32,405 nucleotides of DNA from Paracoccaceae bacterium. Lineage in GTDB: Bacteria; Pseudomonadota; Alphaproteobacteria; Rhodobacterales; Rhodobacteraceae. The DNA lies in the NCBI GenBank assembly GCA_003567315.1, contig PWZT01000030.1, positions 1 through 32,405 on the forward strand, read 5' to 3'. Below are positions 16,532-27,115 of this stretch, in pieces. The first letter of the stretch is position 1. The number at the start of each line of letters is the position of its first letter. The notes beneath the pieces were generated by a model, which was not told the DNA's origin, did no database searches, and was given only the letters and a program-made list of their open reading frames with translations. Position numbers and translations under genes: made by a program.

Positions 16532-17275
16532 TCAGCGCCTGCGCGCGTAGATATCACCAGAATTCGCACTGTCGGGGAGCGCGTCGACGACGGCGATCGT
16601 GTCGCGCGCGGACAACCAGGGCCGATGGCGCAATGTTTGCGTCTCACCAATGCTGAGGTTGAAGTCGTACGGCCCCAGTTCGTCCAGATACTGGATACAG
16701 GCAAACGCCGCCGCGCGCTGGATCACTGTGAACTCGAATGACAGCAACGGCAATGCGTGGCTCAGTCCCTGCAGGACGGCCAGCTCAAAACCCTCGACAT
16801 CAATCTTGACGAAATCGGGTTCGCCGAATTCCGCGATCAGCGCGTCGAGCGTGGTGACCGGAACCTCGATCTGTCCCTCCCAGACCTGTCCTTGCCAACC
16901 CGGTGCATTCCGTGCAGCAGCGATGAAGTCGGGCGCGAGGGTGGCGACGGTGGGGTTTTTCGGGTTGAGATGCAGCGTCCCCGTGCTGACCTGTCGCCCG
17001 ACTGCATGCGGGCGCAAGGTCGCACGCGGGTTGCGCCCGTGGATGAGGCGCAGGGCGCGAAACAGACGCGGTTGCGGTTCCAGCGCGACCACCGATGCGC
17101 CCAGCCGCAGGAAGCTCGCGGTACGGTCCCCGACATGCGCGCCAATATCGAAGGCCAGCGCGCCCGGTCTGAGCAAGCGCGCATGCAGGCGATCCATGCG
17201 GGCGGTGCGCGCGGGGTCGCGGTAATAAGTCGCGAGCGAGCGTCCGATGGGCCTGGTCGCGCCGCTATTCCCCAA
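16532..17275 (-). CDS. FkbM-family SAM-dependent methyltransferase
   Basis: The enzyme methylates an unknown substrate, typically a sugar hydroxyl in this family. Visible motifs are the SAM site AFDIGAHVGDRTASFLRLGA, VVALEPQP (motif II acidic residue) and FVKIDVEGFELAVLQGL, with a C-terminal SANSGDIYAR. The frame reaches upstream to 17377 inside the gamma-glutamyltransferase gene. I favour the TTG at 17275, which overlaps that gene by 11 bases, has AGGGG about 7 bases upstream, and gives 247 residues aligning end to end with the paralogue at 25.5 kb. An ATG at 17197 would remove the first 26 residues. It is the downstream partner of the transferase gene in one transcription unit. Confidence 0.82.
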   Translation of the reverse strand: MGNSGATRPIGRSLATYYRDPARTARMDRLHARLLRPGALAFDIGAHVGDRTASFLRLGASVVALEPQPRLFRALRLIHGRNPRATLRPHAVGRQVSTGTLHLNPKNPTVATLAPDFIAAARNAPGWQGQVWEGQIEVPVTTLDALIAEFGEPDFVKIDVEGFELAVLQGLSHALPLLSFEFTVIQRAAAFACIQYLDELGPYDFNLSIGETQTLRHRPWLSARDTIAVVDALPDSANSGDIYARRR

Positions 17276-19061
17276 GCGCAATCCCCTCGCGGCGGCGATC
17301 GGCACCGCCCGAAAGCCGCCCGTCCTCGATCGAGATAGCCTGCACGCCGGACGGGCGCGGGCCGATGCGGACATCAAATCCCATCATCTCGAGCGGATCG
17401 GCGAGGTCGGCAGCCCAGGTGCCTTCTTCAAGGATGTAGGTGCCGAAGGCGTTGACGAGCTGCGGCATGTCGGCGGCCGCCTGCACGTCCATCCCCCAGT
17501 CCAGATGCGCGAGGATATGCGTGGCCGTGTAGACGATGATCGGCGCGCCGCCGGGCGATCCGGTCACCAGCACGGGCGTGCCATCGCGCAGCACCACTGT
17601 CGGCGCCATGGACGACCGCGGTCGCTTGCCGGGCTCCACCCGGTTGGCGATCGGCCAGCCGCCCTCGTGGCTGCGGAACGAGAAATCGGTAAGCTCATTG
17701 TTCAGCAGGAACCCGCGCACGAAGAGCCGCGCGCCGAAACCCGACTCGATCGTCGTGGTCATCGACAGCGCGTTGCCATCAGCATCGACGATCGAGATGT
17801 GGCTCGTCGCGGGGCGTTCGGGGTCGGTGTCGGGCGCCCAGAGCAGCGCGTGGTCCCATTCGGGCGCGCCCACCGGCACCTCGGGCAGGGCATCTTCTCG
17901 CCGCAGAAGTTCAGCGCGCCCGGCAAGGTAGCCGGGATCAGTCAGCCCTGCCACCGGCACCGGCACGAAATCACTGTCAGCAATGTAGCGACCCCGGTCG
18001 GCGAAGGCGAGCCGCGTGGCATCCCCGATCAGACGCCATGTCTCGGGCGACCTCGGGTCCATCGCGGCGATGTCGAAATGTTCCAGCTTGCCGAGGATCT
18101 GCGCCACTGTGATCGCGCCCGAGGAGGGCGGTCCCATCCCGCAGACCTCGGCCCCGCGATAGTCGGTGCAGACGGCCGGGCGCTCGATCACGCGGTAGCG
18201 GGCCAGATCCTCGAGGCTCAAGAGCCCCGGCGCGCCCTCGGCTCTGCGCACGGCGGCGACGATATCCTCGGCGATGGGACCACGGTAGAACGCGCTTGCG
18301 CCGTCCCGCGCCAATGCGCGCAAGGTCTCGGCGTAGTCCGGGTTGGTGCGAATATCGCCCTCGGCCAGCGCCGTGCCATCAGGGTAGAAATAGGCCGCCG
18401 TGGCGTCGAACCGCGTCAGGCGGTCTGCGTCACCCGCGATCTGGCCTGCAAGGCGCTTTGAGACGGCGAAGCCCTCTTCGGCCATCGCGATGGCGTCCTC
18501 GAACAGCCCCGCCCAGTTCGACCGACCCCAGCGGCGATGCGCGTCCTCTATCAGCGCGGGCGTGCCCGGCGTGCCGACGGCCAGCCCGCCGACAACCGCG
18601 TCCCAAAATGGCAGCGGTTCGCCATCCGCGTCCTGAAACAGGCGCGGTGTGGCGGCCAGCGGCGCGGTTTCGCGGCCGTCGAGCGTGGTCACCTCCCTCG
18701 TTTCGGCATCGTACCAGACCAGAAAAGCGCCGCCACCAAGCCCAGAGGATTGCGGCTCCACCAGCCCCAGGACCGCCTGCACCGCCACCATCGCATCGGC
18801 TGCGTTTCCCCCGTCGCGCAGCACCCGCGCGCCGGCCTCGGCTGCCAGCGGGTTCTGCGCGGCAACCATCCAGCGCCCGGCCTCGACCGGGTGGCCCGCT
18901 TCGCGCGCTTCCCAGGAAGCTGCGGCCCGGTCCGAAAGGCCCGCGAACGCTGCCGGCAGCGCGACCGCGATCTCGGGATCGACCGCATTGGCCTCCTGTT
19001 GCGCGGCTGCGGGCAGCGCAAGAATGAGTGTCAGCGCCGGGATCACCAGTGCGCGCCGCAT
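17265..19061 (-). CDS. ggt: Gamma-glutamyltransferase (gamma-glutamyl hydrolase), periplasmic
   Basis: The 598-residue N-terminal-nucleophile hydrolase cleaves glutathione and other gamma-glutamyl compounds. A signal peptide covers residues 1-20 (ending AAA). The large-subunit signatures are AAQNPLAAEAGARVLRDGGN, SSGLGGGAFLVW and PPSSGAITVAQIL. The catalytic Thr is Thr419 in ATSHISIVDADGNALSMTTT, where autocleavage would generate the small subunit; the downstream SMAP motif (RPRSSMAPTVVL) and GSPGGAPII oxyanion loop are present. The ATG at 19061 is preceded by AGGGGAG and begins a clean signal peptide, unlike the longer frame to 19256. It is followed by an overlapping FkbM gene, and the next operon is a peptide importer on the same strand, so joint use of extracellular glutathione is plausible. 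Confidence 0.92.
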   Translation of the reverse strand: MRRALVIPALTLILALPAAAQQEANAVDPEIAVALPAAFAGLSDRAAASWEAREAGHPVEAGRWMVAAQNPLAAEAGARVLRDGGNAADAMVAVQAVLGLVEPQSSGLGGGAFLVWYDAETREVTTLDGRETAPLAATPRLFQDADGEPLPFWDAVVGGLAVGTPGTPALIEDAHRRWGRSNWAGLFEDAIAMAEEGFAVSKRLAGQIAGDADRLTRFDATAAYFYPDGTALAEGDIRTNPDYAETLRALARDGASAFYRGPIAEDIVAAVRRAEGAPGLLSLEDLARYRVIERPAVCTDYRGAEVCGMGPPSSGAITVAQILGKLEHFDIAAMDPRSPETWRLIGDATRLAFADRGRYIADSDFVPVPVAGLTDPGYLAGRAELLRREDALPEVPVGAPEWDHALLWAPDTDPERPATSHISIVDADGNALSMTTTIESGFGARLFVRGFLLNNELTDFSFRSHEGGWPIANRVEPGKRPRSSMAPTVVLRDGTPVLVTGSPGGAPIIVYTATHILAHLDWGMDVQAAADMPQLVNAFGTYILEEGTWAADLADPLEMMGFDVRIGPRPSGVQAISIEDGRLSGGADRRREGIALGE

Positions 19062-19143: not shown

Positions 19144-19414
19144 TCGATTGCGCCTCCGCGCGCTCCGGGCGCGCGATTAACCGCAGGTCCTTTCAACATG
19201 CGCAGTTCGTGATGCGAAGTGCAAACTCGAGCGATCCAGCCGTTTCTTTTCCGCATCCATCCCCCGTCCTTTCACGCGCCGCCCTGATACCCAAATTGCG
19301 CCAAGGATTGAAGCCAGAGAGCGCCGGCGGTGCGGTTGCCTTTGCAGGGTCTCGCATGCCAGCCGTCGCTCGAGCTTTTACCAGCGCTGCCGCCCTGAGA
19401 CATGTTGCAAGGCG

Positions 19415-20256
19415 ATGGCCACCGCCTTTTCTGCCACCCCCCAACACGAAGAGCTTGTTGCCGCGGGTGTGTCCGAGCGCAGGCGGATGCTGGCCATGAT
19501 GCGCGACTTCACGGTCTTTGGCGAAACCCCGGGCGGGATCGCCAAGATCATAGCGGGTTGCTGGACGGAGATTTTGACCTCGGGCTGATCGGGATCCCCG
19601 AGGATGAGCTGGACGCGCTGCTGCAAGATGCCGATGATGACCGCGCGCCCATCGATGATGACATCGCCGACCACATCCCCGAGCCCCCGGCGGAACCGAT
19701 CACAAAGCTTGGCGACATCTGGCGGCTCGGGCATCACCGGCTGATCTGTGGCGATGCGACCGACCCAGCGGTGATGGCGCGGCTGATGGACGGGGCGCAG
19801 GCATCGCTGATACTAACCTCGCCACACTATGCCCAGCAGCGCGATTATGACGCGGTGAACGGGAAACTCGGCGATTGGGATGCGCTGATGCAGGGCGTGT
19901 TTGCCGCAGCACACGTCACCGCCGATGCCCAGTTGCTGGTGAATCTCGGCCTCGTCCATCGCGACGGCGAGTGGATCCCGTATTGGGAGGGCTGGGTCGA
20001 CTGGATGCGCGCGCAGGGCTGGCGGCGCTTCGGCTGGTATGCGTGGGACCAGGGGCCGGGCCTGCCCGGGGACCGGAACGGGCGGCTGATCGCCGCTGAA
20101 CGCACCGGGCGGCGCTGCTGCGCAGTGGAACTGGATCCCGTCTATTGCGACGTCGCCTTGCGGCGGTGGGAGATGGCGACGGGGCGAGCGGCCAGTCGTA
20201 TCGTCAACGAGAAGGAAGCGCAGAAGCCCCCGCGCCGGTCAAGAAAACGCGCATGA
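19415..20256 (+). pseudogene. Phage-type ParB-domain / DNA methyltransferase fusion, remnant with deletions
   Basis: Intact relatives combine an N-terminal ParB-like domain with a beta-class DNA methyltransferase and are usually 400-450 residues. Here a short frame from ATG 19415 carries a weak ParB-like end (LAMMRDFTVFG then KIIAG). At about 19553 the reading moves to another frame with LLDGDFDLGLIG, the linker that normally comes after the ParB domain. The methyltransferase part has DIWRLGHHRLICGDATD, the motif IV region LILTSPHY and the well-conserved VNLGLVHRDGEW and RFGWYAWDQGPGLPGD. It then jumps straight to AAERTGRRCCAVELDPVYCDVALRRWE, skipping the segment that normally holds motif I (FxGxG). 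Without it SAM binding should fail. The TSPHY in place of TSPPY is a further change. Confidence 0.7.
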
Positions 20257-20468
20257 CGCGGTCGCGCCGCATGTCTCTGATCGAGGCCATCACCAATTTA
20301 ACTGTGGGTTACGCGCTGGCGGTTGCGACGCAGATCTTGGTGTTCCCATGGTTCGGCCTGCACCCCAGCCTTGGCGACAACCTGGCGCTGGGCGGGGTCT
20401 TCACCGCAATCTCCCTGCTTCGGGGGTACGCGCTGCGCAGGCTGTTCGAGGCGATCGGCGAACGGTAG
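20253..20468 (+). CDS. Small phage-associated membrane protein, DUF7220-like
   Basis: The 71-residue protein starts in an ATGA overlap with the methyltransferase remnant. It contains MSLIEAITNLTVGYALAVATQ, split here by one-letter gaps in homologues, followed by ILVFPWFGLHPSL and ALGGVFTAISLLRGYALRRLFEAI. Two membrane helices are expected. Proteins of this pattern sit beside DNA methyltransferase and terminase genes in Rhodobacterales prophages; function is unknown. The reading frame is intact although its neighbour is deleted. The start could also be the Met six codons later. Confidence 0.7.
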   Translation: MTRSRRMSLIEAITNLTVGYALAVATQILVFPWFGLHPSLGDNLALGGVFTAISLLRGYALRRLFEAIGER

Positions 20469-21151: not shown

Positions 21152-22039
21152 TCAGGTTTCGGGCGTCAGATTGGCCGCGCCCGCTAATCGTGCGGCATTC
21201 CCGATGCTGTGGACACGCTGCAATCCTGCACTTGCGCGACCATGAACAGGCACATCCGCCTTTACGGCATCTTCCGACAGCGCACAGTCGAAAAGGACAT
21301 CGGTTCCGAGCGAGAAGACACGCGTTTCCGGTCGGACACAATCGGCAAGTTTCAATTCCGGTCGTTGTGTGGTCAATGCGGAAGGCCCTGCGCCGATCAA
21401 TAGCGGGGCGACGGCAACATGAAGTCGATTCAGCAATCGCGCCTCAAGAAATCTTGAGATAGTGATGCCTCCGCCTTCTATCAGTATCTTCTCCAACCCC
21501 GCCTTGCGCAGCGCCTGAAGCACAGTGCGTGCCGGAAAAAACCGTTCGCCAAGCGAAAGGCGGATCACCTCAACACCCGCAGGGCGACGGCGCTCGACGG
21601 CCTGGATCACGATCCGGCGCGTGCCGTCATCGCGCAGCATCGGGGCGTCATCAGGCAGCCTCCCGTTCGGGTCTATCACGACCCGGGCCGGATTGTGGCC
21701 GGGACACAGCCGCACTGTAAGGCGCGGATCGTCATGCAGGGCCGTGCCGACCCCGATCACCACGCCGTCTACCAGCGCCCGCAACCGGTGCAGATGCGCA
21801 AGACCACCTTGCCCGGAGACATCGCGCGCATCGCCCGCGACAGTAGCAATCCGTCCGTCCAGTGACTGCCCGATCTGCGCAACAGTCAGCGGGCCAAGGT
21901 CTCGGCGGGCAAGTGATCCATAGAGCGCCAATGTTGCCTGTTCGCCCGCGCTCCATGACCCGCAACAGGCACAGGCCGTGCCTGCATTGACAGACAAGAC
22001 ACGCTCCCAGACACGCGGCGTTACATCAAGAGGCTGCAT
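21152..22039 (-). CDS. RibD-family reductase domain protein without deaminase domain
   Basis: The 295-residue protein matches the C-terminal reductase half of RibD, which reduces a ribosylamino-pyrimidine phosphate to the ribityl form with NADPH. Motifs seen are AQIGQSLDGRIAT (55-67), HRLRALVDGVVIGVGTAL (about 84-101), DDPRLTVR, NPARVVIDPNGRLP and the glycine loop ILIEGGG. The zinc deaminase domain of bifunctional RibD is absent. Instead the first 50 residues form an unrelated lead-in with a CACC cluster. The frame extends to a TTG at 22057, but ATG 22039 has AAGGAGA at the right spacing. It is the last gene of a tight leftward operon headed by a GTP cyclohydrolase II, 14 bases after the methyltransferase gene. 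Confidence 0.85.
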   Translation of the reverse strand: MQPLDVTPRVWERVLSVNAGTACACCGSWSAGEQATLALYGSLARRDLGPLTVAQIGQSLDGRIATVAGDARDVSGQGGLAHLHRLRALVDGVVIGVGTALHDDPRLTVRLCPGHNPARVVIDPNGRLPDDAPMLRDDGTRRIVIQAVERRRPAGVEVIRLSLGERFFPARTVLQALRKAGLEKILIEGGGITISRFLEARLLNRLHVAVAPLLIGAGPSALTTQRPELKLADCVRPETRVFSLGTDVLFDCALSEDAVKADVPVHGRASAGLQRVHSIGNAARLAGAANLTPET

Positions 22040-22053
22040 TCCGCTTCTCCTTT

Positions 22054-22848
22054 TCAAGAGGCTCCCAGCATTTGCGACGCCAGGTCCGGCGGCACGGCCA
22101 GAATGTCACGATGCCCGATTGCGCACATGGCCTCTGGTATACGGGCGCGGCGCCGTGCGGCCCAGTCTCGGGCATCGGCGGAACCTGCCTCTGCGGCGGC
22201 CTGACCAACACCGCCCAGAAATTCGCGCTGCAACCCGGCTTGCGCAGGCCCCAGCCTCCACGGACTATCTGCTGCGACGACGACATAGCCCAGTGTCGTG
22301 AAAACGCGACTCGCCGCTGTTGCAGCATCCGGTCCGAGTGCTGGCCCGAGCCCTTTGTCGCCGCGTTGGTGACGGTTGAATGCAGCGACAACCTCGGCAT
22401 CCGCGTCGTCGGCGATGGACCATTCCATCACCCCGTCATAGGACAATGCCGCATAGAATGGCAGACCGCGCTCTGCGACGCGCCGGGCCAGGCCATGAAG
22501 CCAATCCTCGCCACACAGATCAAGAAGTGCCGAGGCCGTGACCAGCGTTGCCCCGTCCAATGGCAGCGCATCAAGTGCTGTCAGGTCACGGGTATGCGTA
22601 TGCACTTTCGCACTGTGCGTGGTTGCTGCCTGCGCCAGCAAATCTTCGTCGTGATCCACAAGATGCCAGATCGCGCCGCGCTCGGGACAAGCCCCGAAGC
22701 CACGCATGGTCGAGCCTGTTCCACTGCCCAGATCGACGATCACAGGCTCTGTCCCGGCCGAGCGCATGGCCAGCTGCGCAAGCCCTTTGTCGCGCGCGGC
22801 ATGATCGGCAGGTTCGCGCAAACTCAACCATTCGGCAGAAAACCCCAT
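22054..22848 (-). CDS. Class I SAM-dependent methyltransferase of the pteridine-like operon
   Basis: The 264-residue protein has motif I VIVDLGSGTGSTMRGF at about 36-51, followed by WHLVDHDEDLL (motif II) and ATLVTASALLDLCGEDWL (motif IV region). The N-terminal AEWLSLREPADHAARD is characteristic of relatives found in the same gene neighbourhood as RibA/RibD/PTPS-like genes. The substrate is not known; by context it could be the ring or side chain of the operon's product. The start is 3 bases after the PTPS-like gene, so translation is likely coupled. Confidence 0.85.
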   Translation of the reverse strand: MGFSAEWLSLREPADHAARDKGLAQLAMRSAGTEPVIVDLGSGTGSTMRGFGACPERGAIWHLVDHDEDLLAQAATTHSAKVHTHTRDLTALDALPLDGATLVTASALLDLCGEDWLHGLARRVAERGLPFYAALSYDGVMEWSIADDADAEVVAAFNRHQRGDKGLGPALGPDAATAASRVFTTLGYVVVAADSPWRLGPAQAGLQREFLGGVGQAAAEAGSADARDWAARRRARIPEAMCAIGHRDILAVPPDLASQMLGAS

Positions 22849-22851
22849 GGC

Positions 22852-23247
22852 TCAGATATCCGCCTCGAACCAGCCGCGCGCCACATGGCTTTCATGCAGC
22901 GTGATACGCAGTCGCTTTACGCGCCCGTTGTCATTAAGAGCACCCGCGCGGACCCGCGACGCCATTTCCTTGAAGATATGACCCGACAGGAATTCGGTTG
23001 TGGTGAAGATGCCCTTGAACTCTTCCGCATCGTCCAGGTTCTTGTAACGCAAGGGTTCCAGTACTTGCGCGAGGGCTTCGATAGCGAGCCCGATATCGAC
23101 AACCAGACCATGTGCGTCAATTTCTTCCGCAAAGAAAGCGGCATCAACCGTGAACGTAGCCCCATGAACGCCTTGCGCCGGGCCGAAGACCGGGGAGGGG
23201 AAGGAATGTGCGATCATGATATGGTCACGAACTTCAACAGCGTACAT
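22852..23247 (-). CDS. 6-pyruvoyl-tetrahydropterin synthase / QueD-like protein with altered active site
   Basis: The protein has 131 residues, the usual length for this fold. PTPS/QueD enzymes act on dihydroneopterin triphosphate using three zinc His ligands and a Cys in the pattern CxxxHGH. Here His14 (in MIAHSF) and His28 are kept, but the third ligand is Ala30 (HGATF instead of HGHxF) and the catalytic Cys position is Ala24. The TTTEFL segment and the C-terminal LHESHVARGWFE, with the pterin-anchoring Glu, are present. Zinc binding could use another residue such as His9. The chemistry is therefore probably not classical PTPS or QueD. It lies between a dehydrogenase and a methyltransferase gene in one operon. 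Confidence 0.82.
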   Translation of the reverse strand: MYAVEVRDHIMIAHSFPSPVFGPAQGVHGATFTVDAAFFAEEIDAHGLVVDIGLAIEALAQVLEPLRYKNLDDAEEFKGIFTTTEFLSGHIFKEMASRVRAGALNDNGRVKRLRITLHESHVARGWFEADI

Positions 23248-23273
23248 GGATAGCCTCTCTGGTGGTGCGTGTT

Positions 23274-24224
23274 TCAGGTGTATCGAATACGGTGGCAGAG
23301 TGTGTCAGGTGCCGCGAGGATGGTCGCATATTGGGTGGGCAGATCCTCGAAATCAGTCTCGCCCGAAATGAGCATGTCGAGCCTGTCATCATCGCGGAGC
23401 AGCGTCAGCGCTTTGCGCATCCGGCGTGCATATGACCAGCGTGGCGTGCGATCAGCGGGCAGATGACCAACCTGCGAACTTATCAAACGCAGGCGCTGGC
23501 TGTGAAAGGCAGCGCCCAAGTCGACCTGGACGGGCTGGGTGCCGTACCAGCTTGCCTCCACCACGGTGGCATTCATGCCCGCCATGGACAGCGCGCAAGA
23601 AAGCCCTTTTGCTGTGGCGCTGGTATGAATGACCACATCGCAGTCCTTCGGGGCCGCATCAGGCAGGACACAGCGTATCCCTAGATCCGCAGCCAGTTGG
23701 GACCGCTGCGGATTGATGTCCACCAGCGTGACCTCGGCACCCGGAAGACGTGCTAACAAAGTTCCTGTCAGTAGCCCGACCACGCCCGCGCCGATCACGG
23801 CAATCCGGTCGCCCGCACTGGCGCCGCTGTCCCAAAATATATTGAGCGCGGTTTCCATATTCGCGGCAAGGACAGCACGCGCCGTTGGCAAACCTGCGGG
23901 CAGTACCGTCAGGTTTTCTGGCGGCAACCGGTAGCGCGTCTGATGGGGGAACAGCGCGAAAACCAGTTCGCCCTCGAGCGCGCCTTCCATGACGCGGCCT
24001 ACGCTGCAATATCCGTATTTGACGGGGAAGTCGAAGGTCCCCTCCATCCCGGGCCCCCGCATCCGGTCATGTTCCGACTTGGGAACCTGGCCGCGCAGCA
24101 CCAGCCCTTCCGTGCCGCGGCTTATGCCCGAATAGAGCGTCTGAACCAGAACGCCGTCGCCTGTCCCTGCGGGGCGTATCTCCGCTTTGTTCGGGGCAAC
24201 ACACCAAAGAGCGCGCGCAGTCAT
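23274..24224 (-). CDS. MDR-superfamily dehydrogenase without catalytic zinc ligands
   Basis: The 316-residue oxidoreductase has a GroES-like N-terminal domain and a Rossmann domain with IAVIGAGVVGLLTG at 141-154 and the acidic LVDINPQR that binds the ribose of NAD(P). The N-terminal motif SGISRGTE replaces the Cys-bearing zinc motif of classical alcohol dehydrogenases, as in BchC-like and other zinc-free MDR proteins. It probably oxidises or reduces a hydroxyl or carbonyl on the pathway intermediate. Its ATG overlaps the stop of the GTP cyclohydrolase gene (ATGA), so the two are coupled; the next gene starts 26 bases after its stop. Confidence 0.85.
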   Translation of the reverse strand: MTARALWCVAPNKAEIRPAGTGDGVLVQTLYSGISRGTEGLVLRGQVPKSEHDRMRGPGMEGTFDFPVKYGYCSVGRVMEGALEGELVFALFPHQTRYRLPPENLTVLPAGLPTARAVLAANMETALNIFWDSGASAGDRIAVIGAGVVGLLTGTLLARLPGAEVTLVDINPQRSQLAADLGIRCVLPDAAPKDCDVVIHTSATAKGLSCALSMAGMNATVVEASWYGTQPVQVDLGAAFHSQRLRLISSQVGHLPADRTPRWSYARRMRKALTLLRDDDRLDMLISGETDFEDLPTQYATILAAPDTLCHRIRYT

Positions 24225-25387
24225 GTCAGAAGATGCCCGGATTTTGTTGCCTTGGTAGCCAGATACAGCGCATTTTGGCTCGTTTTGCCGACCTCCAGCG
24301 GAACTCGTTCGGTCACCTCTATGCCCTGCGCGGACAGAACAGTGAGCTTGGCAGGATTGTTCGTCAGCAACCTTGCCTGCGCGATGCCGAGTTGCTTTAG
24401 GAGGGCAGCACCATGACGAAAATCGCGTTCATCATCGTGGAATCCAAGATGATGATTGGCTTCTACCGTGTCCATACCGCCATCCTGCAAAGCATATGCA
24501 CGCATCTTGTTGCCCATGCCGATGCCGCGACCTTCCTGATTGAGATAGAGCAGTACCCCGCCACCAGAATCTGCCATTGTCGCGCAGGCGGCCCGAAGCT
24601 GCGGGCCGCAATCGCATTTCAGCGACCCCAGAACATCGCCTGTAAAACATGCCGAATGCAGCCGCACCAGCACAGGCCCTGAGAAATCCGGGGTACCAAT
24701 TTCGATAGCATAATGTTCGATACTACCGTCATCGGGCCGATAGACGTGTACGCGACCAGACTGGCTGACCGACATCGGCAAGGACGCCGTGGAGACTGGG
24801 TTGTGCATTCGCGCCGTTGTTAGTTCAGAGATCGCCTCGGCGGCATCGACATTGCTCAGGCCGTGCTGCTGTGCGGTGGTCGGGCCATCCTGGAGCGGCA
24901 AGAGCAGCACAGCAGGCAACAATTGTGCCGATTTGCAAAGCGCGATCGCGGCTTCGTGCAACAGTGCCCCGACATGGACCTGTGGCACGCATGATGCACA
25001 TAAACCTTCGAGAAGAGCTGCTGAGGCATGATCCAGTGGCGCCAGCGCAGGATCAGCTAGTGACTTGATTCTGGAAAGAGACACGTCGCGCGATAGGACA
25101 AGATGTAAAACATCGGTCTGTGGGAGGTCTTTGACACCAGATCGAAACAGGCGGTGGCGCGTCAAGACAAGATGACGTGGCTGTCCAGACAATGCCAACG
25201 CGGCGTGGCGTTCGGGGATAAGCATCTCAACTGCGATAACTAGCGCTGCTGTTTTACCCGAGGTCAGCACAACTGGTGTTCCCAATCGCACATCCCCTTT
25301 TACCCGCATCACTCTTTCGCGTCGGGAGGGTGACAGTGCAGCGCCGTTCTTCATGACCGGCAGAGGAGCGAGAGAGGCTTTGTTCAT
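24221..25387 (-). CDS. GTP cyclohydrolase II with N-terminal extension
   Basis: The enzyme opens GTP to 2,5-diamino-6-ribosylamino-pyrimidinone phosphate, formate and pyrophosphate. The catalytic domain covers the C-terminal 190 residues: VRLHSACFTGDVLGSLKCDC with the three zinc cysteines, LYLNQEGRGIGMGNKMRAY and DTVEANHHLGFHDDERDF, then LLTNNPAKL. The N-terminal half (about 190 residues) lacks DHBP synthase active-site motifs and resembles the degenerate lead domain of alphaproteobacterial RibA. The frame is open to 25435. I use ATG 25387, but ATG 25414 is equally possible because neither has a strong ribosome site. It heads the five-gene operon. A housekeeping ribA may exist elsewhere. Confidence 0.88.
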   Translation of the reverse strand: MNKASLAPLPVMKNGAALSPSRRERVMRVKGDVRLGTPVVLTSGKTAALVIAVEMLIPERHAALALSGQPRHLVLTRHRLFRSGVKDLPQTDVLHLVLSRDVSLSRIKSLADPALAPLDHASAALLEGLCASCVPQVHVGALLHEAAIALCKSAQLLPAVLLLPLQDGPTTAQQHGLSNVDAAEAISELTTARMHNPVSTASLPMSVSQSGRVHVYRPDDGSIEHYAIEIGTPDFSGPVLVRLHSACFTGDVLGSLKCDCGPQLRAACATMADSGGGVLLYLNQEGRGIGMGNKMRAYALQDGGMDTVEANHHLGFHDDERDFRHGAALLKQLGIAQARLLTNNPAKLTVLSAQGIEVTERVPLEVGKTSQNALYLATKATKSGHLLT

Positions 25388-25553
25388 GTTGCATTCACTG
25401 TGTTTCAGGCGCATTGACCTAGCTTTCTGCAGCAACAGGCAAGTGCCATGTTCGGATTATTGACTGAGCCGGGGCATGTGACAGGTTGTCCGGCTTGACG
25501 CTGGGCGACGCGTTTCCGCGCGCAAACTCATAAAGTCGGCGTCCGTTGCGATA

Positions 25554-26300
25554 ATGGAGATAAACCTGGGTCTGGCTCAATGGCGTGGATTTCTGCGGTC
25601 TCTGTTGATTTACAACAACCCGAAAATTGTGCGCCCGATGCGGCGCTTCTATCGTGAGTTACTGCGCGACGGCGATCTGGCATTCGACATCGGTGCGGAT
25701 GACGGAATGCGCGCCCGCGCGACGAGAGCCGCAGGGGCGCGTGTGGTAGCTCTGGAGCCGCAAGCGCCGTTCGCTGGATATCTGCGCGTCACCCTGCCGC
25801 GCGATATCCGGTTTCTGGAAGTCGCCGCCGGTCCAACGGAAACGGTGGCAAAAATGGCAGTGTCTCGGCGCCATCCGACAGTGTCGTCGCTGCGCAGTGG
25901 CTTTGCCGAAGAAGCCGGCGTCAAGCCGGGTTTCGAGCATGTGCGTTGGGATATTGAGCAGCATGTTGTGGTTACGATGCTTGACAAGCTGATCGCAGAG
26001 GAAGGTGTGCCGCGCTATATTAAGATCGATGTGGAAGGCTTTGAGCTCGACGTCCTCGCAGGGCTCAGCCAACCTGTAGAGCTGATCTCGGTCGAATACC
26101 TGCCCGGCCTGCCACATCTCAGCAATGCCGTGATTGACCGGTTGCTAGAGCTTGGGGCCTATCGCTTCAATTCTGTCGTAGGTGAGAGCAGCGCGTTTCT
26201 CTGGCAAGACTGGCACGATGGCGATGCCACCAAGGACTGGTTGCGCGGTTTGCCTGCCAACGCCAGCTCGGGCGACCTTTATGCCCGTCTATCCGACTGA
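25554..26300 (+). CDS. FkbM-family methyltransferase, paralogue of the 16.5-kb gene
   Basis: The 248-residue protein has AFDIGADDGMRARA (SAM site), VVALEPQAPF, YIKIDVEGFELDVLAGL and the C-terminal ASSGDLYARL. It aligns along its length with the FkbM protein next to ggt, including the N-terminal YYR/YNN...R.RR.Y..LL.. region, so the two are paralogues. In the glycine loop it has DDGM where the other has HVGD, so SAM binding may differ. No clear ribosome site is seen before the ATG. It is divergent from the GTP cyclohydrolase operon, with 166 bp between the two starts, and its last 22 bases overlap the convergent phosphatase gene. Confidence 0.87.
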   Translation: MEINLGLAQWRGFLRSLLIYNNPKIVRPMRRFYRELLRDGDLAFDIGADDGMRARATRAAGARVVALEPQAPFAGYLRVTLPRDIRFLEVAAGPTETVAKMAVSRRHPTVSSLRSGFAEEAGVKPGFEHVRWDIEQHVVVTMLDKLIAEEGVPRYIKIDVEGFELDVLAGLSQPVELISVEYLPGLPHLSNAVIDRLLELGAYRFNSVVGESSAFLWQDWHDGDATKDWLRGLPANASSGDLYARLSD

Positions 26301-27115
26301 TCGCGCAGGATTTCAGCGAAAGCGTCGAACACGCCTGGACAGGCCGTCAGAACTGTACCTGACCGCTCTGGCCTGTCACGCGGGTCAAGTGAGGTTACAG
26401 TCGCCCCTGCTTCGGACAGAAGCACCAGTCCCGCTGCGATGTCCCAGGGCTGCAATACGCGTTCCCAGAACCCGTCCAGTCGGCCAGCCGCGACATAAGC
26501 GAGGTCCAGCGACGCCGCACCCATGCGGCGCACCCCCGCACAATGCGGCATCAACCGCGCGATATCTGCTGCATGGGTGTCGATATGCGCCATGTCACCA
26601 AAGGGAATCCCTGTGCCGAACAAGGCCCCGCCAAGCGTACTGGTCTCCGCTACCCGGATCTGGTGGCCATTCAGACTGCCGCCAACACCAATGCGCGCGG
26701 CAAAGGTCTCGCCCTTCAGCGGATCATGCACCACCCCGATACGGCGTATGCCGTCAACTTCCAGCGCGACTGACACGGCCCAATGCGCGATGCCGCGCAG
26801 AAAATTGGTGGTGCCGTCAAGCGGGTCCACAATCCAGCGCCGCCTTGGCGCCAGCTGCGCCGTGGTTTCCTCGCCAAGCCACCCATCCTCTTGCCGGGCA
26901 GTCAGCAATATATCCCGCAGGCAAGCCTCAGCCTCAGTATCCGCACGCGACAAAAAATCCCCCGCCCGTTTGATCTGCACACGCAAGCTGTCCCGGTTCT
27001 GCCAGTGACGCATCAGAAGCTCACCCGCTTCATGTGCAGCGCGGATCGCAAGCACCAGATCCGCCGTGTCCTGTTCGTTGCATTTGGCATCCAGATGTGG
27101 GGGCGGCGGCATCAT
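26279..27115 (-). CDS. Inositol monophosphatase / CysQ-superfamily phosphatase
   Basis: The 278-residue Mg-dependent phosphatase has the motif GEE at 81-83, the metal-binding WIVDPLDGTTNFLRGIAHW at 94-112 and the second motif QPWDIAAGLVLLSEAG at about 222-237. Family members hydrolyse inositol phosphate, fructose bisphosphate or 3'-phosphoadenosine phosphate; substrate cannot be fixed from sequence. In this setting it could dephosphorylate a ribityl-pyrimidine or similar intermediate, which the operon otherwise lacks an enzyme for. The first ATG overlaps the stop of an upstream reading frame (ATGA), showing that it used to be, or is, translated after another gene. Its 3' end overlaps the convergent FkbM gene. 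Confidence 0.87.
   Translation of the reverse strand: MMPPPPHLDAKCNEQDTADLVLAIRAAHEAGELLMRHWQNRDSLRVQIKRAGDFLSRADTEAEACLRDILLTARQEDGWLGEETTAQLAPRRRWIVDPLDGTTNFLRGIAHWAVSVALEVDGIRRIGVVHDPLKGETFAARIGVGGSLNGHQIRVAETSTLGGALFGTGIPFGDMAHIDTHAADIARLMPHCAGVRRMGAASLDLAYVAAGRLDGFWERVLQPWDIAAGLVLLSEAGATVTSLDPRDRPERSGTVLTACPGVFDAFAEILRDQSDRRA

Follow-up and report, generated by a model that had tools for sequence, protein, structure and literature searches.

The locus and its genes

Five genes packed tightly on the minus strand of a Paracoccaceae genome (Rhodobacterales; assembly GCA_003567315.1, contig PWZT01000030.1, positions 1 to 32,405, a stretch of 32,405 nucleotides hereafter called the window) belong to a widespread pathway, present in many bacteria and in variant form in some salt-loving archaea, that appears to start from guanosine triphosphate (GTP) and to yield a modified molecule of pteridine or pyrimidine type, not vitamin B2, which may become attached to a membrane lipid. 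In order of increasing coordinate they encode a RibD_C reductase without a deaminase (21152-22057; RibD_C, at 118.8 bits, is its sole Pfam match), a class I S-adenosylmethionine (SAM)-dependent methyltransferase (22054-22848; a weak Methyltransf_25 match of 21.2 bits, cut-off 27), a tunnelling-fold protein of the PTPS-IV (FGPAQ) subfamily predicted to bind a pterin or pyrimidine (22852-23247; PF01242, 71.1 bits), an MDR dehydrogenase without recognisable zinc ligands that is predicted to oxidise a side-chain alcohol (23274-24224), and a GTP cyclohydrolase II (GCHII; 24221-25435; PF00925, 191.4 bits). The last is of the type that keeps a motif tyrosine, and is predicted to catalyse the first step and to release 2,5-diamino-6-ribosylamino-4(3H)-pyrimidinone 5'-phosphate (DARPP) directly. 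From left to right the junctions are a 4-base overlap, a 3-base gap, a 26-base gap and a 4-base overlap. An earlier note on this DNA, made from the sequence alone, had described such a run of overlaps or gaps of 26 bases or less, and its coordinates and gene order were confirmed. Pfam likewise agrees with the five families it had named, with weak matches for the methyltransferase and the MDR; the latter reaches 26.2 bits with ADH_zinc_N (cut-off 31.8) and 24.7 with the Rossmann family ApbA (above its 22.2), and its top NCBIfam model is BchC at 55.5 bits against a cut-off of 291. An AlphaFold2 model of the methyltransferase (pLDDT 94.6) matches varied, generic class I methyltransferases.

To the right lies a gene for an inositol-monophosphatase-family (IMPase) phosphatase (26279-27115, minus strand; PF00459, Inositol_P, 182.7 bits), whose predicted role in this lineage is to cleave off the 5'-phosphate. 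The earlier note had placed it just upstream on the same strand; the strand is right, but between it and the GCHII gene sits a plus-strand gene for an FkbM-family methyltransferase (25554-26300; PF05050, 45.8 bits), possibly an accessory second methyltransferase of the lineage. FkbM genes also adjoin the cluster at three further loci (L037, L038 and L039) and in Palleronia (L054), and IMPase genes at L037, L038, L041 and L054. The window holds a second FkbM-family gene at 16532-17377 on the minus strand. Scans for promoters and terminators gave scores no better than those of shuffled sequences.

A neighbourhood shared across phyla

A scan of GTDB genomes with a Thiodictyon PTPS query returned at least 595 matching stretches, at least 569 of them confirmed, of which the best 80 were kept; these are the top matches to that query, not an even sample, and 18 with less than 7 kb on one side were dropped, which left 62 for counting. 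Within 7 kb of PTPS, MDR and the SAM methyltransferase occurred at all 62 loci, a GT4-type glycosyltransferase at 61, a CDP-alcohol phosphatidyltransferase at 55, an LPG-synthase-TM (flippase-like) protein at 42, RibD_C at 39, GCHII at 36 and creatininase at 33 (weak matches included), followed by sulfatase-fold proteins (16), FkbM (5), MdoH (3), IMPase (1) and cytochrome b561 (1). Beyond 7 kb, sulfatase-fold proteins (four loci) and MdoH (one) were all that the flanks held of the same 16 families. All-against-all clustering of the other open reading frames (ORFs) near the loci, viewed for its 25 largest families, showed no further gene recurring in a fixed place beyond a few loci, and many of those families look like antisense reading in G+C-rich DNA. 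Repeating the profile search turned up one more CDP-alcohol phosphatidyltransferase locus, but none for five other families.

When 398 Pseudomonadota genomes were drawn evenly, 27 had PTPS-IV (source genome included), with MDR adjacent in all 27, and GT4 (24 of 27) and the SAM methyltransferase (19 of 27) within about 1.5 kb. Among genomes of the same family, 13 of 149 (the source and 12 of the 148 others) carry an MDR orthologue of at least 273 bits (273.6); the next match falls to 56.7 and, since some MDR match at E<=0.001 occurs in 116 of the 149, only the 13 above this gap were counted. The 12 other MDR loci, several on short contigs, hold PTPS (10), the SAM methyltransferase (9), GT4 (9), an mdoH-like gene (9), RibD_C (7, one partial), IMPase (3), FkbM (3) and GCHII (2). 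Records with PTPS-IV relatives span Pseudomonadota, Actinomycetota, Acidobacteria, Gemmatimonadetes and Nannocystaceae, and three from Haloarcula place a GTP cyclohydrolase III, MDR, a PTPS-family protein, the SAM methyltransferase, a CDP-alcohol phosphatidyltransferase and GT4 side by side, with neither a RibD_C nor a flippase-like match in those three stretches. Because the same genes adjoin one another in several phyla, the neighbourhood is more than chance; the co-occurrence for which the earlier note had proposed a search is thus widespread.

Riboflavin, queuosine and F420

Since GCHII and RibD_C are riboflavin families, and since uncurated KEGG placed the Streptomyces coelicolor protein SCO6655 under riboflavin metabolism (PMC2853524), an ordinary riboflavin operon or a back-up riboflavin supply might be considered. 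It is very unlikely. In the source genome (102 contigs totalling 2.84 Mb, 90% complete) a separate full-length RibD of 370 aa lies on contig C23, its deaminase motif judged by eye, directly after an ORF that we take to be NrdR-like, and a separate RibA of 401 aa on contig C67 with 53% identity to the window GCHII; a third GCHII-family ORF, on contig C4 (L051 6254-7447), matches PF00925 in two pieces and scores 36 bits against a cluster GCHII. The earlier note had suggested looking for housekeeping ribA and ribD elsewhere in the genome, and its conclusion that the product is not riboflavin is borne out by both having been found and by a cluster with no deaminase domain: across the 10121 ORFs of the studied loci, the RibD-type deaminase pattern occurred once, apparently spuriously. 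Nor are DHBP synthase, lumazine synthase or riboflavin synthase named in the annotated stretches viewed, ribB, ribE and ribH not having been searched genome-wide; and to our knowledge PTPS, MDR and GT4 have no riboflavin role. A dedicated GTP-derived pathway with another product is therefore well supported.

Public records label the cluster PTPS proteins as 6-carboxytetrahydropterin synthase with a queuosine term. The CxxxHGH motif of QueD (PTPS-I) is found in none of 107 cluster homologues, and the queuosine-enzyme reading was rejected. The window protein, the sole PTPS-family gene found in the 90% complete source genome, with no second, QueD-type member, carries FGPAQ (as VFGPAQG), as do 101 of the 107, the exceptions being the three Haloarcula proteins, L064, L130 and L138; its single PDB match at E<=0.001 is 3d7j (E 7.6e-37), which is SCO6650 of S. 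coelicolor. FGPAQ defines the PTPS-IV subfamily of COG0720, according to a 2017 paper whose AGeNNT network has a node of 561 PTPS-IV sequences with PF00925 and PF01872 as neighbours (PMC5445326). A part in archaeal F420 synthesis was ascribed to PTPS-IV in 2016, as unpublished work, in another paper (PMC5041015). Here, synthesis of F420 or a deazaflavin is highly improbable, because CofH (TIGR03551) exceeds its cut-off in none of the 39 genomes with a PTPS-IV or MDR orthologue, the source included (3 of 14 control genomes do exceed it); sub-cut-off matches occur in 12 of the 39, the top one being a split match of 208 bits in genome G344.

Entry from GTP and the two redox enzymes

GCHII proteins of the cluster fall into two classes. 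The window protein, with the motif NKMRAYAL, keeps the tyrosine, whereas methionine, histidine or cysteine replaces it in Actinomycetota clusters that have a strong creatininase match. In S. coelicolor SCO6655-type enzymes methionine reportedly takes the place of the tyrosine of the RAY motif; the window GCHII, having the tyrosine, is not of that type. Among 48 cluster GCHII proteins, 18 have the tyrosine, and 15 of these clusters lack a creatininase match; the other 30 have Met, His or Cys, each beside a strong creatininase match (303-574 bits). The change lies at a single point on the GCHII tree, and for that reason Fisher values for the association are not used. Within the creatininase family, BrbF has been proven to act as a formamidase that converts the formylated cyclohydrolase product to DARPP (PMC9478397); genetic linkage makes the Actinomycetota cluster creatininase a candidate for a like role. 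In the Haloarcula records a GTP cyclohydrolase III fills the first step (PF05165, 276.5 bits in the one tested), a class that makes formylaminopyrimidine nucleotides, to judge from the title of a 2002 paper cited in PMC8305020. Because three solutions for supplying it adjoin the same later genes, we place the start of the dedicated pathway at the diamino-pyrimidine nucleotide.

For RibD_C the top PDB matches are 6p8c, named 2,5-diamino-6-ribosylamino-4(3H)-pyrimidinone 5'-phosphate reductase, and 2azn, named putative 5-amino-6-(5-phosphoribosylamino)uracil reductase. Against NCBIfam it scores 100.7 bits with the DARPP reductase model of ArfC type (TIGR01508), below the cut-off of 186, and higher, 116.9, with ribD_Cterm. 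The MDR is more unusual: in the 107 cluster MDRs both the catalytic-zinc cysteine motif and the structural CxxCxxC are absent throughout (0 of 107 each), yet the string YGY is present in every one, which is why the protein looks like a conserved, different active site and not like decay. The string GHE, counted at any position, occurs in three. PDB matches of the MDR profile are zinc-type polyol and related dehydrogenases, and oxidation of the ribityl chain is accordingly suggested as its reaction.

A probable membrane part elsewhere in the genome

GT4, the phosphatidyltransferase and the flippase-like protein belong to this pathway and are encoded on other contigs of the source genome, C30 and C22; the window is thus only its soluble part. 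The methylated, oxidised pyrimidine or pteridine that the earlier note expected is, for the same reason, probably not the end product. Contig C30 has a GT4 of the cluster type (51% identity, 342 bits, next best 53). On C22 (L190 7693-15567) genes for LPG-synthase-TM, a sulfatase-fold protein, a CDP-alcohol phosphatidyltransferase and a cytochrome b561 stand side by side, near mdoH- and mdoG-like genes. The sulfatase-fold protein is 63% identical to that of genome G074, and the phosphatidyltransferase scores 168 bits against the cluster profile, where the four other PF01066 members of the genome reach at most 36. Across the cluster the CDP-alcohol phosphotransferase motif D..DG..AR..G...D...D is intact in 78 of 78 aligned homologues.

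Other genomes join what is split here. In G104 (L038) the membrane genes, GT4 and the window set, minus GCHII, occupy a single 19.5-kb stretch; in G106 (L037) MDR, PTPS, the SAM methyltransferase, RibD_C, IMPase, FkbM, GT4, the flippase-like protein and the sulfatase-fold protein share one stretch; and in G074 (L039) the membrane genes accompany MDR, GCHII, FkbM, GT4 and a partial RibD_C, PTPS and the SAM methyltransferase not being found in the available stretch.

Pterin glycosides are made by cyanobacteria, and by analogy the end product here could be a soluble glycosylated, methylated pteridine, the phosphatidyltransferase and flippase-like genes making an acceptor or being mere envelope neighbours. 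The near constancy of GT4 (61 of 62 loci, against 55 for the phosphatidyltransferase and 42 for the flippase-like protein) speaks for this, as does the top PDB match of the GT4 profile, D-inositol 3-phosphate glycosyltransferase, whose product is soluble. Against it, the phosphatidyltransferase and flippase-like genes recur beside PTPS in Actinomycetota and several Pseudomonadota, the former also in Haloarcula, and the source genome keeps homologues of both. We regard a soluble end product as possible, if doubtful.

A proposed pathway

Taken together, the evidence favours a conserved GTP pathway, not that of riboflavin, with PTPS-IV at its centre and possibly ending in a lipid-attached product; to this proposal, taken as a whole over the six steps that follow, we give a probability of about 0.58. 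GCHII would first open GTP to DARPP, which elsewhere would come from a tyrosine-less GCHII together with a creatininase-family protein or, in Haloarcula, by way of GTP cyclohydrolase III. The RibD_C reductase would then give the ribityl form, in which the 2-amino group would be retained because there is no deaminase. These early steps are well supported, the first being established for the families and the second for relatives, and what the DNA shows directly is the gene set, its joint conservation, a RibA and a RibD encoded apart from it, and the lack of a deaminase. For what comes after, and for its order, we infer the chemistry. In this lineage the IMPase-family enzyme may strip the phosphate, and the zinc-less MDR may oxidise a ribityl hydroxyl; if that hydroxyl is at C2', the resulting ketone could close onto the 5-amino group, giving a dihydropterin whose ring PTPS-IV would bind while aiding the reaction. 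The SAM methyltransferase and GT4 would methylate and glycosylate the product, the CDP-alcohol phosphatidyltransferase would couple an alcohol of it to a phospholipid head, and the LPG-synthase-TM protein could move it across the membrane.

Ring closure is where a further alternative departs, in which the substrate of PTPS-IV is the ribitylamino-pyrimidine as such and a pterin never arises. The set of enzymes is equally compatible with it, and canonical pterin chemistry is unlikely because no cluster PTPS has CxxxHGH; an oxidation by MDR near a free 5-amino group would, on chemical grounds, tend to cyclise, and we think an unclosed pyrimidine product improbable.

Carried furthest, the lipid-linked form of the proposal would have a membrane phospholipid carry a GTP-derived pteridine as its head group. 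DARPP would be reduced, re-oxidised at C2' to a pterin (reduction followed by oxidation substituting for the rearrangement performed by GTP cyclohydrolase I), methylated, glycosylated, linked to a phosphatidyl group and flipped outwards. In this lineage the sulfatase-fold enzyme may in addition pass the phospho-head to periplasmic glucans, given the mdoG- and mdoH-like genes on C22, and cytochrome b561 may keep the pterin head reduced; these glucan and cytochrome parts draw on few lineages (MdoH at 3 and cytochrome b561 at 1 of the 62 loci; mdoH-like genes at 9 of 12 same-family loci). We offer this full version, glucan transfer and cytochrome included, as a tentative possibility. If true, the envelope would contain a lipid or polymer that bears a pterin, and haloarchaea would have a variant of it.

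Several observations weigh against the pathway as drawn. We know of no established substrate for MDR, PTPS-IV, the methyltransferase, GT4 or the phosphatidyltransferase. Among the other 12 MDR loci of the family, just 2 have GCHII and 7 have RibD_C in the stretch available; in the wider set RibD_C accompanies 39 of 62 loci, and all three Haloarcula stretches lack it. Either housekeeping genes serve these steps as well, or the pathway can at times do without them. IMPase (1 of 62) and FkbM (5 of 62) are rarer still in the wider set. In the source genome GT4 and the lipid genes are unlinked to the window, and the C22 phosphatidyltransferase, at 168 bits against a median of 296, stands at the low end of cluster members. 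The association of the GCHII tyrosine with creatininase is a single split on the tree, hence one event, and 3 of the 18 tyrosine-bearing clusters do have a weak creatininase match (75-87 bits). One Streptomyces creatininase, from S. fungicidicus, scores 141 bits with MftE (cut-off 172), 100 with creatininase and 37 with ArfB, all below cut-off. FGPAQ is missing from the three Haloarcula PTPS proteins, and that of L060 shares 28% identity with the Thiodictyon query; what relates the archaeal version to the others is thus its context, and it is not a proven PTPS-IV. Finally, lone PTPS relatives on two Streptomyces plasmids (L064 9001-9426; L065 9001-9399) have no other family of the set beside them; both lie near a MEKHLA-domain gene, cupin genes, an MBL-fold hydrolase gene and a BTAD regulator gene, possibly a second context for the protein.

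Flanks, base composition and mobility

The earlier note had read a low G+C patch and flanking phage remnants as signs of horizontal gain. The patch exists as a mild dip only (0.571-0.572 in the two 1-kb segments that cover 24.5-26.0 kb, where all others lie at 0.588-0.739), and of the remnants the left one stands: 19402-20468 holds part of a DNA methyltransferase gene of phage type (phrog_498, 151 bits), whose C-terminal region separately matches other methyltransferase phrogs, and then a phrog_4276 ORF, and is likely a decayed phage remnant beside the cluster. On the right, the one ORF scanned against PHROGs gave a 26-bit match. Horizontal gain is plausible, because occurrence is patchy (12 of 148 other same-family genomes) and plasmid copies are known, the nearest plasmid match by MDR being that of Palleronia sp. 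LCG004 (66.6%). Carriage by viruses was also considered and found no support, viral contigs yielding one remote MDR match (32%).

Comparison with known systems

The earlier note called the pathway undescribed, which is too strong: the AGeNNT paper puts PTPS-IV, PF00925 and PF01872 together in print (PMC5445326), and Streptomyces homologues have been studied (3d7j). That neighbourhood shares with ours FGPAQ and both Pfam neighbours. The paper reads PF00925 as FolE2/GTP cyclohydrolase I; among neighbours, the portion of its PTPS-IV section available mentions neither MDR nor GT4, nor a CDP-alcohol phosphatidyltransferase, a flippase-like protein or a creatininase, and it names no pathway (PMC5445326). 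In the open-licence PMC literature we found neither a product nor the wider gene set of the cluster. What goes beyond the print we found is the membrane part, the split arrangement in the source genome and a concrete lipid-linked pteridine hypothesis; the neighbourhood itself is not new. PTPS records are annotated as queuosine-type, yet their neighbours describe a different pathway. Given the gene set, its division between the window and C22, and the exchange of enzymes at the first step, the proposal could be tested directly in a model organism, S. coelicolor for one.

The S. coelicolor region SCO6650-SCO6655 is among the closest known systems, since the window PTPS matches SCO6650 and no other PDB entry at E<=0.001. 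Streptomyces loci without RibD_C (e.g. L100) run in the order PTPS, GT4, SAM methyltransferase, flippase-like, creatininase, GCHII, an arrangement that would fit the locus numbers 6650 and 6655. SCO6650 is said to lack zinc and the catalytic triad, and SCO6655 reportedly makes only the formylated product; the GCHII proteins of S. coelicolor were reportedly the subject of an earlier study. In contrast to that region, the window has a tyrosine-type GCHII, RibD_C, IMPase and FkbM, and no creatininase.

Two biosynthetic routes offer further parallels. The archaeal and fungal riboflavin pathway places reduction before deamination, and the cluster shares with it the proposed order of GCHII or GTP cyclohydrolase III, putative formamidase and RibD_C-type reductase; it differs in having no deaminase domain and in its additional PTPS, MDR, methyl-transfer, glycosyl-transfer and lipid genes. 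Clusters of the toxoflavin and pseudoiodinine type combine GCHII, RibD-related and methyltransferase genes for a non-riboflavin product, as we propose here; ours, by comparison, has no deaminase domain and surrounds its cyclohydrolase instead with PTPS-IV, MDR, GT4 and phosphatidyltransferase partners.

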